Counted from the stretch's first letter, positions 21,008 to 34,288 are shown. The stretch is 64,000 nucleotides of DNA from Seleniivibrio woodruffii (GCF_029267515.1 NZ_JAJUIS010000005.1:124001-188000); one strand, 5' to 3'. The notes: generated by a model from the letters alone, not told the origin. Translations and numbers: made by a program.

Positions 21008-23065
21008 TCAGAATCTGAGTGTCATATCCGCCGCAACGCGCAGACCTTCGTCAACCATCCAGTTGCCGTCCAGCCCGCCCGTACGGGTGCGGTCGTCCAC
21101 TGCCACCTTTTTGTCGGTGATGTTGAGCACCGCCAGTTTGAAAGCAACGTATTTGTTAACGTCGTAAACACCGCCTATATCATAGGTAGCAGCGCCCGGA
21201 CGGGTTCTTGAGTTCATCGCGCCGTTGCGGAACGCTGACCAGTACTGCTTGCTCACAACGTTTGCCCTTGTGTAGAGCGAAAGTGATTTAACCGGTTTCC
21301 AGTCGAGCTGTGCATTGAACATGTGCTCCGGCGTTTTGTCCAGCGGTTTTCCGTCCAGAGAACTGCCGTCGTATGCGGGTTCGCCGCCTTTACGCTCGGA
21401 ATCGGTATAAGTGTAGTTAGCACCGAATTTCAACTTTTTTGTGAGCGGCATATTGAATGTGACCTCAACGCCTCTCATGTTCACTTCGTCTATGTTGTCA
21501 TAAACGTAGATATATCTGCTGGGCACCAGCGGGTCAACCACGCCTGTGCTGAAGCTGGAGACCTTGTCTTTAAGGTCGTTGTTGTACACTGTGAAACCAA
21601 AGTTCATTCCGGTTGGCGCATCGTATCTGATACCCACTTCCTCTGTGACGCTTGTTTCGGGGTCAAGGTCGGAATTGCCGCAAAGGGTTCCCGCCTGCTG
21701 TGTTCCGCCTCCTGTGGTCATACAATATCCTTCGGTGGTCTGGCGCACTGTGGGAGCCTTAAAGCCCATTGCAACGCCGCCTCTCAGCGTCCATCTGTCG
21801 GTGAGTTTATATACAGTGTACACTCTGGGTGTCCAGTTGGAGCCGTATCTCTCGTCGTCGTCCATACGCACGCCTGCTGTGATAGCAAGTTTATCCGTAA
21901 GGAAATATTCGTCCTCAAGATACAGCGCATATGAATCTATGGATACGTCGTCGGTGTTCGTCGGATATCCTGAAATTGAATCCTGCTTGCCTATGCCCTC
22001 AATCTCCGCTTTCATAAGCTGCCCGCCTGTGCGCAGGGTGTGCTTTGTAAAGTTATATGACAGTCCCGCGTCCAGTGTTGAGTTGGTGAGTTCCGGAACA
22101 ACGGCGCTCTTCGTGCCGTCTGTCCAGTTTTCAAGCTCCGCTATCTCCTGAGACAGCACGAGGCTTGTTGTCGCGCTGCCGTATTTACCGTCGTGGCTCA
22201 CAGACCAGTGTTTTCTGGTGTGTTCAGACTTTGTGGATGCCGCCGTGTCCGCAAGGGATTTTCCGGCTGTGCGTTCATATGTCAGCGTGTCGTATCCGCC
22301 CTCAACGTTTATCTCGTTGCGGCTGTCGGGTGTTATGGTGAACTTCGCAGTGATATTTTCGTCCTCTTTCCCGTTGCTGCCGCTTGTGGCGGAACCGGGA
22401 TAGTAAACGTCGTCCTCATTGCGGTCGTTCATCTCGCCGTAAAGCTGGAATCCCACCTTGTCTTTAACTATGGGACCTCCTATCCAGAACTGTCTGTTGA
22501 ACGTAGTTCCGATGTCGCCGTCCTTTGGCTGTACAGTGCCGAGGGTGAGCGATCCACTCCATTTTTCAGGCACCTTTTTGGTGATGATGTTGATAACACC
22601 ACCCATCGCCTCTGAACCGTATACAGCGGACATGGGACCTCTGACAACCTCTATGCGCTCAATGGCTTCCAGCGGCGGAATCATGTTCGACTGAACGCCG
22701 CCTGTGCCTCTGTTCATCGTTTCTCTGGTGTTCTGACGTTTGCCGTCAACCAGAATCAGCGTATATTCGCCCGGCATACCCCTTATAACGATATCGGTAT
22801 CGTTGGGCGAGGAACCTGTGATGCTCACGCCCTCCACGTTTTTAAGCAGGTCTGTCACAGAGGATGCGGGAACTTTCGCGATATCCTCTTTCGTTATCAC
22901 GCTGATGCTTGCCGGAGCATCAGCAATATACTGCTCGTAGCCTGTAGCCGTCACAACGACGGGCTTAACCTCCACAGCGTCCTCTGCGTGCGCCGCAAAA
23001 GTACCGAGCGCCATAGACACGGCGAAAATAAAACTCCCGCGTCTGAATAAATTCATTGGCTTCAT
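21008..23065 (-). CDS. TonB-dependent ferric-catecholate siderophore receptor (FepA/IroN-like)
   Basis: 685 residues. Signal peptide ending AAHA; TonB-box region VKPVVVTATGYE; plug domain with IVIRGMPGEYTLILVDGKRQNTRE and IERIEVVRGPMSAVYGSEAMGGVINIITKK; then a 22-strand barrel ending in MTLRF. The plug wording is typical of FepA, IroN and colicin I receptor relatives. Start has GGAGGAAAG. A Fur box (23085-23103) and an extended -10 (23116-23124) stand upstream. Neighbours are the permease, ATPase, binding protein and esterase of the same route. Confidence 0.92.
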   Translation of the reverse strand: MKPMNLFRRGSFIFAVSMALGTFAAHAEDAVEVKPVVVTATGYEQYIADAPASISVITKEDIAKVPASSVTDLLKNVEGVSITGSSPNDTDIVIRGMPGEYTLILVDGKRQNTRETMNRGTGGVQSNMIPPLEAIERIEVVRGPMSAVYGSEAMGGVINIITKKVPEKWSGSLTLGTVQPKDGDIGTTFNRQFWIGGPIVKDKVGFQLYGEMNDRNEDDVYYPGSATSGSNGKEDENITAKFTITPDSRNEINVEGGYDTLTYERTAGKSLADTAASTKSEHTRKHWSVSHDGKYGSATTSLVLSQEIAELENWTDGTKSAVVPELTNSTLDAGLSYNFTKHTLRTGGQLMKAEIEGIGKQDSISGYPTNTDDVSIDSYALYLEDEYFLTDKLAITAGVRMDDDERYGSNWTPRVYTVYKLTDRWTLRGGVAMGFKAPTVRQTTEGYCMTTGGGTQQAGTLCGNSDLDPETSVTEEVGIRYDAPTGMNFGFTVYNNDLKDKVSSFSTGVVDPLVPSRYIYVYDNIDEVNMRGVEVTFNMPLTKKLKFGANYTYTDSERKGGEPAYDGSSLDGKPLDKTPEHMFNAQLDWKPVKSLSLYTRANVVSKQYWSAFRNGAMNSRTRPGAATYDIGGVYDVNKYVAFKLAVLNITDKKVAVDDRTRTGGLDGNWMVDEGLRVAADMTLRF

Positions 23066-23084: not shown

Positions 23085-23103
23085 GGTATTGATAATCAGT
23101 ATC
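23085..23103 (-). promoter_or_regulatory. Fur box in front of the FepA-like receptor
   Basis: GGTATTGATAATCAGTATC matches the 19-base E. coli Fur consensus at 16 positions, with inverted arms TTGATA and TATCAA. It covers the expected transcription start of an extended -10 promoter (TGC TATACT on the minus strand, 23116-23124). This predicts repression when iron is plentiful. Confidence 0.8.
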
Positions 23104-28452: not shown

Positions 28453-28481
28453 TTGACAAGAGTAATACTTTTATTTAAAAT
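28453..28481 (+). promoter_or_regulatory. Promoter of the second exbB-exbD-tonB set
   Basis: TTGACA (28453-28458), 17 bases, TAAAAT (28476-28481). It stands 11 bases after the tonB1 stop and shows that the second set has its own transcription. No Fur-like sequence lies nearby; a long palindrome follows at 28503-28534. Confidence 0.72.
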
Positions 28482-28502: not shown

Positions 28503-28534
28503 AAATCGTTATATAAATAACAGCATAACGATTT
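28503..28534. promoter_or_regulatory. Perfect 10-12-10 palindrome in the exbB2 leader
   Basis: AAATCGTTAT (28503-28512) and ATAACGATTT (28525-28534) are exact inverted copies separated by 12 bases. The site begins about 15 bases after the expected transcription start, where a repressor would block elongation. The core CGTTAT-N12-ATAACG also occurs before the lipoprotein gene at 34082. NikR-type regulators bind arms with such spacing. Confidence 0.7.
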
Positions 28535-28551
28535 CTCAGGGGGAGCTGAAT

Positions 28552-28977
28552 ATGGAATGGTTATCAAATCTTATCGATTACGGCGTTATCGGTCTTCTTA
28601 TTGTTCTCTGTTTCGTTGCCGTTATGCTTGCCGTTGAGCGGGCACTCTTTTACAAAAAGACCGATCCCTCCGCATACAAATCCAGAAAAGAACTTGAACT
28701 CGCACTGTCAAAAAACCTGCCGTTCATAGGCACAGTAGCCAGCAACGCGCCCTATATCGGGCTTCTGGGGACTGTTCTGGGCATAATGCTCACATTTTAC
28801 AAGGTCGGAGTGACAGGCAATATAGAGGCGGGAGAGATAATGGTCAGCCTTTCCCTCGCGCTTAAAGCCACGGCTGTGGGACTTGTGGTTGCCATCGTCG
28901 CCGTTGTGCTTTTCAACGCCCTCAACGGCAGCGCCAGAAAGATGCTCATAAGATGGGACATCCACAATGAAGGATAA
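28552..28977 (+). CDS. exbB: ExbB-type proton-channel protein, second set
   Basis: 141 residues, the same short form as the first copy, with VASNAPYIGLLGTVLGIM and SLALKATAVGLVVAIVAVVLF. ATG 28552 is preceded by AGGGGGAG; the longer in-frame start upstream lies inside the palindrome and is unlikely. It overlaps exbD2 by 11 bases. Confidence 0.92.
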   Translation: MEWLSNLIDYGVIGLLIVLCFVAVMLAVERALFYKKTDPSAYKSRKELELALSKNLPFIGTVASNAPYIGLLGTVLGIMLTFYKVGVTGNIEAGEIMVSLSLALKATAVGLVVAIVAVVLFNALNGSARKMLIRWDIHNEG

Positions 28978-29338
28978 TTTCACCGATATAAATGTCATTC
29001 CTCTGGTGGATATAATGCTGGTGCTTCTCACTATAGTCCTTGTTACGGCTAACTTCATCGCAAGGGGGGTGATTCCGGTGAACCTGCCGAAAGCTGACGC
29101 AGAGAACCCGTCTATAAAAGAATCCATCACGGTTGATATGACAAAGGACGGAGCGCTGTTTCTTAAAGGCGAACCTGTCACCATTGAAGAGCTGAAAGCG
29201 GCTCTGGCAGGCGAAGATAAAAATACACCCATATTAATCAGCGCCGACAGGGACGCAACAGTCCAGCCGTTTGTCACAGCGGTGGAAGCCGTTAAGGACA
29301 GCGGATTTACAAAAGTAAGCATACAGACAGAACACTGA
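28967..29338 (+). CDS. exbD: ExbD-type protein, second set
   Basis: 123 residues: MKDNFTDINVIPLVD head, membrane helix with VDIMLVLLTIVLVTANFIA, periplasmic domain ending KVSIQTEH. It is clearly paralogous to ExbD1. The start overlaps the exbB2 stop. Confidence 0.92.
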   Translation: MKDNFTDINVIPLVDIMLVLLTIVLVTANFIARGVIPVNLPKADAENPSIKESITVDMTKDGALFLKGEPVTIEELKAALAGEDKNTPILISADRDATVQPFVTAVEAVKDSGFTKVSIQTEH

Positions 29339-29340
29339 AC

Positions 29341-30084
29341 ATGAACTACTTCAAAGGATTTTTTGTTTCGTTCGTTCTGCACGCGCTGGTGATACTCGCC
29401 CTTTTCGCGGGCAGAGCCAATATGAAAGCGGTTGCCGACGAACCTGAAACTATAGACATATCGACGTATACGGTCGCAAAAGCAGAACCTGTTAAAACAG
29501 AAACACCCGCTTTGCCGGCACCTAAAAAAGAACCCGTAAAAAGTGCGCCTGTAAAACCCGTTGCCGCACCACCTGTTTCGGCACCGCCTATGGTTGCAAA
29601 AGAACCTGTAAAGGCGACAGAACCGAAAGTGGTAAGCGATTTCGGGCAGAAGGAATACGTCCCCGTCAGCGTGCCGGATGCTCAAAAACTGCCCGCATAT
29701 TCAGGAGAGGGAACAGTGGGTGCCAAAGAGGAACCCGCACAGGGAACAGGCATAAAACAGGCGGGAGCACAGAACACATCAAATACCGACAGCGCAGCCG
29801 CCACAGCGGAATATATGCGGATAAATCTTTCAGGGATAAGAAAAAAGATATACGATAAGCTCAGTTATCCCTCATCCGCCAGAAGGATGGGGATGAGAGG
29901 AGCCGCCAGCATAAAGTTCAGGATACACGAAAACGGCACGGTGGACAACGCCACAGTGCACAAGTCCAGCGGTTTCGACGTGCTGGACGAGGCGGCAAAA
30001 CAGGCCGTTCTTGATGCCGCCCCTCTTCCATCACCTTCCGAAACGGTAAACGTTGTCCTGTCGGTGAATTTCGCCCTGAGATAA
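29341..30084 (+). CDS. tonB: TonB energy transducer, second set
   Basis: 247 residues. Membrane anchor with SFVLHALVILALFAG (His present), a Pro/Lys/Ala-rich spacer with KKEPVKSAPVKPVAAPP, and a C-terminal domain around YPSSARRMGMRGAASIKF and SSGFDVLDEAAKQ. Its stop codon directly abuts the stop of the convergent receptor at 30085 with no base between, so the receptor and this TonB set are closely joined on the map. Confidence 0.92.
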   Translation: MNYFKGFFVSFVLHALVILALFAGRANMKAVADEPETIDISTYTVAKAEPVKTETPALPAPKKEPVKSAPVKPVAAPPVSAPPMVAKEPVKATEPKVVSDFGQKEYVPVSVPDAQKLPAYSGEGTVGAKEEPAQGTGIKQAGAQNTSNTDSAAATAEYMRINLSGIRKKIYDKLSYPSSARRMGMRGAASIKFRIHENGTVDNATVHKSSGFDVLDEAAKQAVLDAAPLPSPSETVNVVLSVNFALR

Positions 30085-32076
30085 TCAGTATTTAGCCGAC
30101 AGCGTTGCGGAATAGGTTCTGCCCGCCAGCGGATAATACTGCTTTATCTCATAATTCTCGTCGAAAATGTTATTTGCGCCGACAGACACTGAAAAGTTCT
30201 TATTGATATCGTATGTCGCTTTCAGGCTCAAAAGTGTATAACTGCTGAGTTTGTCTATGCCCTCAGCGTCGGCGTATCTTGAATCGATATATTCCACTCT
30301 GGGGGTAATGGTCAGATTTTTAACCGGAGCAACAGTAATATAGCCGCTGGTGGTTATTTCGGGATAGTAGTCTATCTCGTTTACCGTGATGTCAGCGCTT
30401 TTTCCTATCTCATATTTATTTATCGAGAACGCCGCACCGCCTGAAACGTATCTGTTAAAGAACGCTTCCGCCGCAAGCTCGTATCCGTAGAAGGTCACTT
30501 CATCTATGTTCAGCGAGAAATCCACGGTGGTGGTGGGATAGGTGGGATCCGGAATCTCTATGGTCGCTATCTTATCTTTAAGCACGCTGTAATAAACGGC
30601 AGTGTTAACGTTGTATTTTCCGAAATCACCTTTGTATCCGAACTCATAATGGTCAGCGACCTCAGGCTGAAGCTGCGGGTTCGGCAGCTCAGTTCCGAAG
30701 CGGGTTGAATATCTCTGTGACATATTGGGGAAGTGGTTCTTCCGCGCATATGTAAGGCGCAGTTCGTGATTGTCCGCAACCTCATAAAAGAATCCCAGCT
30801 GACCTTTAATGAGCCATTCGCTGTCTGTCTGAACAGTGTATTCATCCATTCCTATAAACTGCGCAAAATCGTTGGATTTGCTCCAGAAATTCTGCGGCTG
30901 AAGTGTATCGTAGCCGACGCCGCCGACTACAGTGAGTTTTTTCACAGGAACGTATGTATATTCAGCGCCAAACGAATAGGTGTCCTCTTTGATGGAGATA
31001 TCTTTGATATCTTTAGTGTATCCGTCATGCTGTTCGCGCTTGAAGGTTGCGGCGAACTCTATTTTATTCTGCGGATTGAAAGTCCATCCGGCGGCTATGC
31101 GACCGCCGACTGCATATTCGTCATAGTCCGAAGCGGGTTTATGTACGCCCGCGTTGTATGCGGGAAGATTGTAGTATTCAAGGAGTCTGTTGTCGTATTT
31201 GTCATAATGAATAAGGGTTTCCAGCGTAAAACGTCCCGAACGGTATTCGCTCGCCAAAGAAAAACTTTTGCGTTCCCATTCAGGCCAGTCCCAGATGGAA
31301 GCACCTGCGATGGTAGTTTCAGGCGGAGAAACGCCCTTGTCCGCATCCTGATAGATGTAGGTTGCCCAGATGTCCAGATTTGAAGACGGGGTAACGCCCG
31401 CAACCAGCGTATATTTTGAATCTTTGGAATCGGAGAACAGTCTTTCGCCATCTTTCTGGGGGTTAACGGATGTCGGCTCAAAATCTTCGGAAAGCCTGAA
31501 ATGGTCAACATCCCTGCGCTGAACCGTTCCCTTGATATAGAATTTTTCCTGTCTTGTGCCGAGGCTTGCGAGATAATAATTTGACGCACGCTTGAATATG
31601 CTGTCAAACTCCATGGTAGTATCCAGCCTCGCCTCAAACTCTTTAGCGGGTTTTGCGGTCTTCATCAGTATTGCGCCGCCGAGAGTGTTTGCACCGAGCA
31701 GCATGGAGCTGTATCCCTTCTGAATGGTTACGCTCTCAAGGTCGCCCGTAAGGATACGCGCCGCGTCCCCCTCGCCTCTGTACGGGTTGGCGATTATAAC
31801 GCCGTCAACGAATATCGGCACGCTGTCAGCACCGAAACCTCTGACAGTAAAGGATGAATCGTTGCGCTGTCCGCCGCCGGAAAGTATCACGCCGGGGGTG
31901 TAGCGCACCGCCTCCCAAAGGTCATGGGCGTTGTCGCGCTCCATATCCTCCTGAGTTATAACACTGCCCTTGTCCGACTCTTTGCTCTCAACCTTGTTAA
32001 TCTCAAGCATGTAGGTATCCGCAGCATACGCCGCGAAGGAAAACAGCAATAATGCCGGAATTACAAATCTCTTCAT
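30085..32076 (-). CDS. TonB-dependent outer-membrane receptor, substrate unknown (possibly a metal complex)
   Basis: 663 residues: signal peptide MKRFVIPALLLFSFAAYA, plug domain with FTVRGFGADSVPIFVDGV and LESVTIQKGYSSMLLGANTLGGAI, barrel ending SATLSAKY. The typical TonB box is not obvious. ATG 32076 has a GGGGGCGGAG site. No Fur box is upstream. Upstream is the lipoprotein gene preceded by the CGTTAT palindrome, and downstream is tonB2, whose promoter carries the related palindrome. Co-regulation with that set suggests a cargo other than the siderophores; nickel or cobalt is a guess. Confidence 0.88.
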   Translation of the reverse strand: MKRFVIPALLLFSFAAYAADTYMLEINKVESKESDKGSVITQEDMERDNAHDLWEAVRYTPGVILSGGGQRNDSSFTVRGFGADSVPIFVDGVIIANPYRGEGDAARILTGDLESVTIQKGYSSMLLGANTLGGAILMKTAKPAKEFEARLDTTMEFDSIFKRASNYYLASLGTRQEKFYIKGTVQRRDVDHFRLSEDFEPTSVNPQKDGERLFSDSKDSKYTLVAGVTPSSNLDIWATYIYQDADKGVSPPETTIAGASIWDWPEWERKSFSLASEYRSGRFTLETLIHYDKYDNRLLEYYNLPAYNAGVHKPASDYDEYAVGGRIAAGWTFNPQNKIEFAATFKREQHDGYTKDIKDISIKEDTYSFGAEYTYVPVKKLTVVGGVGYDTLQPQNFWSKSNDFAQFIGMDEYTVQTDSEWLIKGQLGFFYEVADNHELRLTYARKNHFPNMSQRYSTRFGTELPNPQLQPEVADHYEFGYKGDFGKYNVNTAVYYSVLKDKIATIEIPDPTYPTTTVDFSLNIDEVTFYGYELAAEAFFNRYVSGGAAFSINKYEIGKSADITVNEIDYYPEITTSGYITVAPVKNLTITPRVEYIDSRYADAEGIDKLSSYTLLSLKATYDINKNFSVSVGANNIFDENYEIKQYYPLAGRTYSATLSAKY

Positions 32077-32095
32077 CTCCGCCCCCTGATAAACA

Positions 32096-32131
32096 TTTGA
32101 AAACGGGAGACAACAATCTCCCTGTTTCAAA
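32096..32131 (-). promoter_or_regulatory. Long imperfect hairpin in the receptor leader
   Basis: The arm at 32096-32110 (TTTGAAAACGGGAGA) pairs with TCTCCCTGTTTCAAA at 32117-32131, two mismatches, loop CAACAA. It lies just upstream of the receptor's ribosome site. It is not followed by a T-run, so it may be an operator, an attenuator or a stabilising hairpin. Confidence 0.5.
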
Positions 32132-32154
32132 TCACTATAAATATGAATCGGAAA

Positions 32155-32185
32155 TCAGCCCTCCCGCCAAAAACAGGAGGGCTGA
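32155..32185 (-). terminator. Probable terminator after the FnIII/nucleotidase lipoprotein gene
   Basis: TCAGCCCTCC (32155-32164) pairs perfectly with GGAGGGCTGA (32176-32185), 11-base loop. On the minus strand only three T follow, so stopping may be partial and the receptor gene may be reached by read-through. Confidence 0.6.
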
Positions 32186-32192
32186 AGAAATG

Positions 32193-34082
32193 CTACTGAA
32201 GCATATATGATGTCTGGTCGTAGGGAGCAACCCAGTCGAGTGCACCTTTTTTCCATCCGGGAGTCTGAAGCGGAACGCCGCCGATAAGCGCCACGCGCCC
32301 GTCAAGATAGGGAGTGACCTTGGCCATCTCATAGATATAGTTGGAAACGGCTTCCCACAGATATTCTGTCTTATCTGTTCTGTTTGTGCCCTGAAGGAAT
32401 ACGAGATAACCCTCGTTTCCGTCAGCAAGATAAGAGGTTGTTGCTATTCTGTATGTAGCAGTAGGGTTGATATCCTGACCGTTGATTTTCAGAGTGCCGT
32501 CCTTAATCCATCCGTACTGGTACTGGCTGGAATCGGTTGAAGAGAGAGCTGTCGTGCCGTCCCATGTCGTATCGTCCCACGTTTTGTACTGAATGGTGTA
32601 GTTCACAGCATCTGAAACCATGGCAAAAGCACCTGTGTTCTTGCTGCCGCGTCCGGTGTGCACAACTGCCGCAGCCGTACGGAACAGGTCTATGACCTGA
32701 CTGCCTGTCAGGGTTATGATTGTCAGCGTGTCTTCCAGAGATTCGGATGGTATCATGCGCAGCATTGAGCCTACGGTTATCTTGCCCTGCGCTATGGGAC
32801 CTTCAATGTAGCCGCCGTTGAGGAATACGAAATCAACGTTCTCGTATTTGTCCGCAACGTACCATGCAGTACCGTCGCAGAACAGATTGCCCAGAGCTGT
32901 TTCTTTAAATCGGGTGAGACGGTCGCTTGATCTTCCGGTGGGGAAGAACGCGCTCGCGGGAACGTCCTCTGCGAAGATGTATTCTCCGGCAGCAGTGCCG
33001 AGTTCAAAGTCGATATCTGAAAAATCTATGGGGGCTGCCGCTGCTTTCGAAGCAGGGATTGCAGATCCGATAGAGGCGTATGCAGATTCGCCCTGACTGT
33101 TGACAGCTTTAACTGAAAAATAGTAAGTCGCGCCGTTCGTAAGCCCTGTCACCATCTGCGTAACAGTGCCGCTCTGCGCGTCAACAGCAACCTCAACAGC
33201 ATCGCCCGCAGCCTTTGCGTTTCCGGCAGTGGTTGAATATTTCAGCATATAGCTTGAGGCATAAGGAACAGCCGTCCAGCTTACGGATACTGTTTTGCTG
33301 CCTGTAACCGCCGAAAAGCCTGTTGACGTTGCAACAGCAGGAACAGCAGTCGCCGCAGCGGGTGTTATGTCCGCCGTGTCATATCCGGAGGCTCCGGCGT
33401 TGTTTATCGCCTGAACCCAGACGCGGTATGCAGAACCGTTTGGAGTGTCTTTGATAAGGATTCTTGAGTCGGAGACCACAGCACCGTCAGCATCGGCATC
33501 CGGAGTTGCGGATGAGGAACCCTGTTTCCAGTAAACTTTATACTCTGCCGCATATGGCACGTCGTCCCACACCACTTCGAGCATATTTTCATAGCCTGAA
33601 TCGGAGGATATCACAGGAGAAGCCGGAGCGGGAACCGGTATCCCTGCCATAGCGTCGCTCAGTTCTGCCTGACCTACGCCGGGATAGTATGCCCTGAGCC
33701 TGATATAGTAGGTATTGGTATTAACCAGCGGTGTACCGTCGGCAAGGGTTGAAACTGTACAGGAAACGAGATTTCCGGCAATAGTCGGGACTATGTCCGT
33801 TTTCTGTGTGTTATCGGCTGATGTGCCTATCCACACTTCATAGGTCGCGTCCACCTCAAGAACGGAAGGAAGTTTTGTCCATGCGATGTCCAGTTTTCCG
33901 CTTTTCGGTGTAATAACAAAGTTTTTGGGGCTTGAAAGCGGGATGCTTCCTGTGCCGCCGTCATCGCTGCTGCCTGAGCCGCCGCCGGAGCCGCAGCTGT
34001 AAAGCATAACAGAGAGAGCCATGACCGCAAGAAGGGTCCATACGTGTCTGAATAGGGATTTTCCCAGTTGAACTGATTTCAT
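32193..34082 (-). CDS. Lipoprotein with fibronectin-III-like repeats and an orphan 5'-nucleotidase C-terminal domain
   Basis: 629 residues. Lipobox LYSC (lipidated C30), a Gly/Ser linker, then three fibronectin-III-like repeats at about 52-150, 155-245 and 250-345. After a linker, residues about 365-605 match the substrate-specificity half of 5'-nucleotidases (ETALGNLFCDGTAWY, DFVFLNGGYIEGPIAQG, TGSQVIDLF, TYRIATTSYLADGNEGY). The metallophosphatase half that carries the catalytic metals is missing, so a hydrolase activity is not expected; binding is more likely. Start ATG is preceded by GGGTGAG, which overlaps the palindrome. It probably sits on the outer membrane next to the receptor encoded downstream. 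Confidence 0.8.
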   Translation of the reverse strand: MKSVQLGKSLFRHVWTLLAVMALSVMLYSCGSGGGSGSSDDGGTGSIPLSSPKNFVITPKSGKLDIAWTKLPSVLEVDATYEVWIGTSADNTQKTDIVPTIAGNLVSCTVSTLADGTPLVNTNTYYIRLRAYYPGVGQAELSDAMAGIPVPAPASPVISSDSGYENMLEVVWDDVPYAAEYKVYWKQGSSSATPDADADGAVVSDSRILIKDTPNGSAYRVWVQAINNAGASGYDTADITPAAATAVPAVATSTGFSAVTGSKTVSVSWTAVPYASSYMLKYSTTAGNAKAAGDAVEVAVDAQSGTVTQMVTGLTNGATYYFSVKAVNSQGESAYASIGSAIPASKAAAAPIDFSDIDFELGTAAGEYIFAEDVPASAFFPTGRSSDRLTRFKETALGNLFCDGTAWYVADKYENVDFVFLNGGYIEGPIAQGKITVGSMLRMIPSESLEDTLTIITLTGSQVIDLFRTAAAVVHTGRGSKNTGAFAMVSDAVNYTIQYKTWDDTTWDGTTALSSTDSSQYQYGWIKDGTLKINGQDINPTATYRIATTSYLADGNEGYLVFLQGTNRTDKTEYLWEAVSNYIYEMAKVTPYLDGRVALIGGVPLQTPGWKKGALDWVAPYDQTSYMLQ

Positions 34083-34090
34083 ATTCTCAC

Positions 34091-34116
34091 CCGTTATATA
34101 AGATTATACATAACGG
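34091..34116. promoter_or_regulatory. 7-12-7 palindrome over the -10 of the lipoprotein gene
   Basis: CCGTTAT (34091-34097) and ATAACGG (34110-34116) with a 12-base spacer. A perfect minus-strand TATAAT lies inside it, so a bound protein would block RNA polymerase. The site shares core and spacing with 28503-28534. Confidence 0.7.
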
Positions 34117-34288
34117 TTATAGAAAAGATGTCCGGAAAATGCAATAGAAAATTTTGCTTATCTGATAAAACCTTACGCTCCAAATACGATCGGTTATTCG
34201 TTCGTTATTTATAAACGGTAAGAGAACGGGAAAAAGAACGGAAAAATTTCCCCTGCGTTTGAATTTGCAATGTGGCAAAACTATGAAA

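Follow-up and report, generated by a model that had tools for sequence, protein, structure and literature searches.

The 64-kb stretch of DNA analysed here, hereafter the window, corresponds to positions 124001–188000 of contig 10 in the genome (2.83 Mb) of Seleniivibrio woodruffii, a Seleniivibrio-like representative of the Deferribacterota. It contains two convergent operons, namely exbB2-exbD2-tonB2 on the plus strand (28552–30084) and a lipoprotein–receptor pair on the minus strand (34082–30085), with a gap of zero between the tonB2 and receptor genes (Table 1). A hydrogenase is also encoded within the window. The genome as a whole codes for 14 molybdopterin oxidoreductases, implying a high demand for Mo.

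Table 1. Genes and predicted regulatory elements of the two convergent operons; positions are counted from the first base of the window, and bit scores refer to the matrix described in the text.
Feature	Position	Strand	Description
Sigma-70-like promoter of exbB2-exbD2-tonB2	28453..28481	+	TTGACA-N17-TAAAAT, 11/12 consensus; predicted
Predicted ModE operator 1	28503..28534		AAATCGTTAT-N12-ATAACGATTT, downstream of the promoter and ahead of exbB2; 32.8 bits
exbB2 (MotA_ExbB)	28552..28977	+	Domain search
exbD2	28967..29338	+	Domain search
tonB2 (TonB_C)	29341..30084	+	Domain search
TonB-dependent receptor, Plug and beta-barrel	30085..32076	-	Second gene of the lipoprotein operon; domains, model, family alignments
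Lipoprotein	32193..34082	-	FN3-type domains, then 5'-nucleotidase C-terminal domain
Predicted ModE operator 2	34088..34119		Core CGTTATATAAGATTATACATAACG at 34092-34115, 7-12-7 arms; 30.2 bits
Weak sigma-70-like promoter of the lipoprotein-receptor operon	34116..34144	-	TTGCAT-N17-TATAAC, 8/12 consensus; predicted

Each operon is headed by a palindrome with the common core CGTTAT-N12-ATAACG, which shows no mismatch in its 12 arm bases at either site. A preliminary description of this DNA had drawn attention to both palindromes, and we recover them where it placed them: the first (28503–28534), whose full sequence is AAATCGTTAT-ATAAATAACAGC-ATAACGATTT, has perfect arms in a 10-12-10 arrangement and ends 18 bp ahead of the exbB2 ATG (28552), and the second has a 7-12-7 arrangement (core 34092–34115) and overlaps both the -10 element of the lipoprotein gene, whose ATG is at 34082, and its leader. 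Since the second site lies on the predicted -10 element, which ends at 34116, and the first falls just after its strong promoter-like sequence, at roughly +15 to +46, repression at both is plausible, as had been suggested.

Under a simple composition model, the window should contain 0.004 exact matches to the motif, and two or more would occur with P ~8e-6; for the genome the expectation is 0.17, against nine copies found there (P ~3e-13). The earlier contention that two identically spaced sites exceed chance is thus borne out. Control patterns with spacers of N11 and N13 each occur once in the genome, and the reversed pattern does not occur in it at all. If up to two mismatches are allowed, 2.3 matches are expected in the window and four occur; hence, loose matches carry no meaning and the two exact ones constitute the signal. 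A position matrix derived solely from 22 sites at mod and mol genes, with TonB genes left out, ranks the two palindromes first and second in the window, with the third-best site reaching 9.1 bits and the best score among 200 simulated windows being 18.1 bits. The chance that these are fortuitous palindromes or an artefact of A+T-rich promoters, for which nothing beyond the A+T-rich core speaks, is negligible in view of the genomic excess, the single copy for each neighbouring spacer and the conservation of the box in relatives (see below).

To judge from the sequence, the palindromes are almost certainly operators of ModE, the molybdate-sensing repressor, because the E. coli K-12 modA promoter holds CGTTATATTGTCGCCTACATAACG, with identical arms and spacing, and because the motif marks the mod operons of the S. 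woodruffii genome itself. The published ModE consensus, ATCGNTATATA-N6-TATATANCGAT, has the same shape (PMC545781; PMC2700814). The genome encodes a ModE protein with HTH_1 and TOBE domains above the Pfam cut-offs, which scores 94.8 bits against TIGR00637, slightly below the cut-off of 98.5, and has an E. coli-like recognition segment (SYKAAWDSIN/SYKSAWDAIN). Among the exact copies of the motif, one stands directly upstream of modE, which is followed by modA, a gene for a TOBE protein, modB and modC, and two precede an operon with modA-like, modB-like and modD genes. Further exact sites are found upstream of genes for a protein combining a membrane part with an NTPase domain, a Tat C_GCAxxG_C_C redox protein and an HD-GYP sensor, and upstream of a gene adjoining a TorA/BisC-type molybdoenzyme. 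A site with one mismatch precedes a FecCD-type, MolBCA-like ABC operon, which codes for a FecCD permease, an ABC ATPase and a Peripla_BP_2 binding protein; in a congener (G002), the box of this operon is exact. The binding protein matches Haemophilus influenzae MolA (HI_1472) with an E-value of 5e-13, but its orthology to MolA is unproved since 4pag and 4ovk score higher. Moreover, as ModE boxes also occur at non-transport genes, such as those for the HD-GYP sensor and the Tat redox protein, membership in this regulon cannot by itself name the cargo of a transporter.

The preliminary description had instead proposed that the palindromes are NikR operators governing TonB-dependent nickel uptake, and the genome does encode NikR, at a site away from the window palindromes, in addition to the hydrogenase in the window. 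This reading now seems highly improbable. The arms of the motif differ both from the deltaproteobacterial NikR consensus, GTGTTAC-N13/14-GTAACAC (PMC545781), of which no exact copy exists anywhere in the genome, and from the enterobacterial GTATGAT-N13/14-ATCATAC, and no copy of CGTTAT-N12-ATAACG lies in the 12 kb around nikR. The expectation that a genome scan with the motif would mark nickel genes fails: the scan marks modE-modABC and the modA/B/D-type operon, and no nickel gene was found among the inspected genes beside the nine exact sites. What survives of the proposal is a shared site for a metal-responsive repressor that links tonB2, the lipoprotein and the receptor; nickel and NikR give way to molybdate and ModE. 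That the sites are not Fur boxes was correctly stated, as a GATAATGATNATCATTATC-like 19-mer has no match with five or fewer mismatches at either palindrome, which excludes a Fur operator.

Elsewhere in the window, the first TonB system is surrounded by Fur-like boxes, at 23085, 26776 and 26876. At the exbB1-exbD1-tonB1 operon and the three other receptors of the window, even the closest match to the ModE motif has at least four mismatches. With ModE boxes restricted to the second system and Fur-like boxes surrounding the first, the window appears to harbor two differently controlled TonB systems, one Fur-like and the other under ModE.

The lipoprotein–receptor pair recurs in Seleniivibrio relatives, in Mucispirillum and other Deferribacterales, and in Treponema from the termite gut. 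In both congeners with the pair, a ModE box is found upstream of it, with zero and one mismatch, respectively. The Mucispirillum species and a further genome (G016) have a related box of 22.7–25.2 bits just before the lipoprotein start, a score matched in 0–1 of 300 simulated leaders. The pair occurs without a recognisable ModE box in two termite-gut Deferribacteraceae (G021 and G032) and in Treponema, where it is often followed by TonB and once by a FecCD-type ABC system; exbB2-exbD2-tonB2 is absent from the corresponding locus of G001. A search for riboswitches near the receptor family in the Treponema, Mucispirillum and outgroup operons recovered none, only a tRNA.

Independent cases come from receptors of other subfamilies. 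Two further genera of the family have an exact ModE box followed by a TonB receptor of a different subfamily and then by an NTPase-membrane protein. These receptors are 37% identical to each other and about 26% identical to that of the window, and their NTPase-membrane proteins are 38–44% identical to the product of the ModE-boxed NTPase gene of S. woodruffii; a ModE-type DNA-binding protein comes next in one of these operons and TonB in another. Across 384 scanned genomes, a stricter version of the palindrome was found in 12, four of them outside the phylum, and in two of these four the box heads operons with the order ModE–receptor–membrane protein (L206) and NTPase–ECF–receptor (L207). It is this repeated pairing of the ModE box with receptors in independent lineages that turns a guess about the regulon of a single genome into a pattern.

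The sequence and fold of the window receptor resemble those of siderophore, haem and B12 receptors in general and offer no hint of its cargo. Its top sequence scores are with siderophore and haem receptors. The best structural match of its model has a Z-score of 36.2 (rmsd 2.9 over 564 aligned residues), and FyuA, BtuB, FecA, OprC and others lie in the range of Z 32–36; with siderophore, B12, PQQ, haem and copper receptors thus tied, the fold is uninformative as a clue to cargo. The C-terminal domain of the lipoprotein aligns with 2z1a (Z 23.6, rmsd 2.1, 200 residues), and its N-terminal part is FN3-like; a Pfam search found no catalytic metallophosphoesterase domain in it. In nucleotidases, the 5'-nucleotidase C domain binds the nucleoside. 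In a single alignment, which is uncertain at these very points, the lipoprotein does not conserve the positions that we take to be the base-stacking residues of E. coli UshA; this weakens the case for nucleotide or Moco salvage through this domain.

Taking the above together, we consider it quite probable that the two operons constitute a ModE-repressed TonB module for the import of Mo (or W), as an oxyanion or chelate. We infer ModE binding and repression at both operons from sequence features, and it is the regulation and the neighboring genes that point to Mo or W as the cargo of the receptor. Counting against the proposal are the ModE boxes at non-transport genes, the pairs with no recognisable box in G021, G032 and Treponema, the absence of exbB2-exbD2-tonB2 from the G001 locus, and the generic sequence and fold of the receptor. 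We envisage the following mode of action. When molybdate is ample, ModE-molybdate would occupy both operators and shut off both convergent operons. Under Mo scarcity, ModE would be released, allowing production of the ExbB2-ExbD2-TonB2 energiser, the receptor and the lipoprotein that partners it. Mo (or W) might then cross the outer membrane through the receptor, in oxyanion form or, more probably, complexed, and from the periplasm the metal could be passed onward via the ABC systems that belong to the same regulon, namely ModABC, the ModA/B/D type and the MolBCA-like one (FecCD-type).

Within this proposal, a module dedicated to tungstate under ModE control is a decidedly unlikely special case. 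Its appeal lies in the breadth of the binding proteins, since ModE and ModA bind both molybdate and tungstate. MolA likewise binds both oxyanions (PMC4031551). The 14 molybdopterin oxidoreductases and modABC point the other way, to Mo as the main need, though not decisively.

Also unlikely, although to be taken more seriously, is that ModE indeed controls the module but that the receptor carries some general metal chelate (a catecholate siderophore, for instance) or a compound related to Moco, with Mo limitation being the signal rather than the payload. The affinity of the window receptor for siderophore and haem receptors in sequence comparisons and the 5'-nucleotidase C domain of the lipoprotein would fit such a cargo, as would a precedent in Azotobacter vinelandii: three TonB receptor–ABC operons are switched on there only in the absence of both Mo and V, via VnfA1 (PMC9542535). 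Against it stand the absence of the UshA base-stacking residues in the lipoprotein alignment and the association of several unrelated receptor subfamilies with ModE boxes beside NTPase, ECF or ModE genes. The A. vinelandii receptors resemble the module proposed here in responding to Mo shortage; however, they do so indirectly through a nitrogenase activator and also require the lack of V, and the passages considered here mention no ModE site at the genes for these receptors (PMC9542535).

Returning to the import of Mo or W, the operator as such is already known and its placement at TonB operons appears to be new. The operator of E. coli modABC, with the same CGTTAT-N12-ATAACG arms and spacing, likewise lies in the promoter region of an Mo uptake operon; in contrast, the two target operons in S. 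woodruffii encode TonB-system components, and we know of no control of such operons by ModE in E. coli. In the textbook view, molybdate diffuses in through pores. One review similarly has it entering via porins (PMC8264917), and a predicted ModE regulon with several transport systems has been described in Geobacter sulfurreducens (PMC2700814). Full-text searches of the open literature revealed no description of a TonB receptor for molybdate or of one controlled by ModE. An outer-membrane route for molybdate does exist in Pseudomonas aeruginosa, where it runs through ModA and IcmP of the H2-T6SS; it differs in relying on secreted ModA and IcmP and in having no TonB receptor (PMC8602904).

We lean slightly towards the view that TonB-powered uptake of Mo or W, probably as a complex, represents an overlooked general strategy of bacteria. 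On this view, ModE-repressed receptors of several unrelated subfamilies would carry out the outer-membrane step of Mo nutrition in several phyla, with that of S. woodruffii having an ExbBD-TonB set and a lipoprotein of its own. If so, some bacteria would spend proton-motive force on fetching Mo, just as iron and B12 are acquired by others, which might matter wherever organisms use molybdoenzymes to respire nitrate, selenate or arsenate in sulfidic or Mo-poor water. The ModE box upstream of a TonB receptor provides a searchable signature, and the proposed substrate can be tested directly.

Two further systems bear comparison with individual parts of the module. H. influenzae MolBCA pairs a FecCD-type importer with a Peripla_BP_2 protein, as does the MolBCA-like operon of S. 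woodruffii, and is an inner-membrane system, unlike the outer-membrane receptor of the window. BtuB-BtuG of Bacteroides similarly has a Plug and barrel receptor encoded beside a lipoprotein gene, and the S. woodruffii receptor model matches BtuB; the S. woodruffii module is distinguished by its predicted regulator, ModE, by a lipoprotein of FN3 and 5'-nucleotidase C domains, and by a second ExbBD-TonB set with the same operator.

Several further loci in this genome and beyond carry ModE boxes (predicted operators of the molybdate-sensing repressor ModE). In a genome outside the phylum, a single boxed operon holds genes for an NTPase, a small membrane protein resembling an S-component, a tandem ABC ATPase, a CbiQ-type protein and a TonB receptor. 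This gene set resembles an ECF-type importer for molybdate or tungstate that brings its own receptor in the outer membrane. In the window's genome (L020) an exact box also heads the gene for a conserved protein whose N-terminal part has multiple membrane segments and which ends in an NTPase_1 domain; in two other genera of the family, genes for related proteins sit within boxed TonB receptor operons. The protein may have a new role in the handling or uptake of Mo. The second modA-like/modB-like/modD operon, with no ATPase gene next to it, has two tandem boxes 29 bp apart. Since the 11-base-spacer copy of the motif lies between two molybdopterin oxidoreductase genes, it could be a ModE site of variant form and not a match by chance.

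Coordinates of the features discussed
Feature	Location	Remark
TonB receptor operon, ModE-boxed	L207:549-5634 (genome G181)	
NTPase_1 membrane protein	L020:8638-10257 (genome C27); L108:3283-4908; L138:8429-10057	conserved
Second modA-like, modB-like, modD operon in genome	L018:5598-7903 (genome C16)	
11-base-spacer motif	C26:14111-14133	sole copy
Fur-like boxes	window 23085, 26776, 26876	close to first TonB system

Termite-gut Treponema (L169-L180, L189, L190) possess lipoprotein-TonB receptor operons, often including TonB and once FecCD ABC genes, with receptors ~50% identical to that of the window's ModE-boxed operon; ModE boxes were not found at these operons. In Mucispirillum (L102:4160-5496), the orthologue of the receptor has as neighbours FmdE-like and DUF364/DUF4213 heavy-metal chelation genes, which also lie next to an ABC operon of the FecCD type.

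The window's first TonB system comprises a receptor (21008-23065), FecCD-type transporter genes and exbB1-exbD1-tonB1; the nearby Fur-like boxes would fit a system for iron or siderophores alongside the ModE-boxed one.
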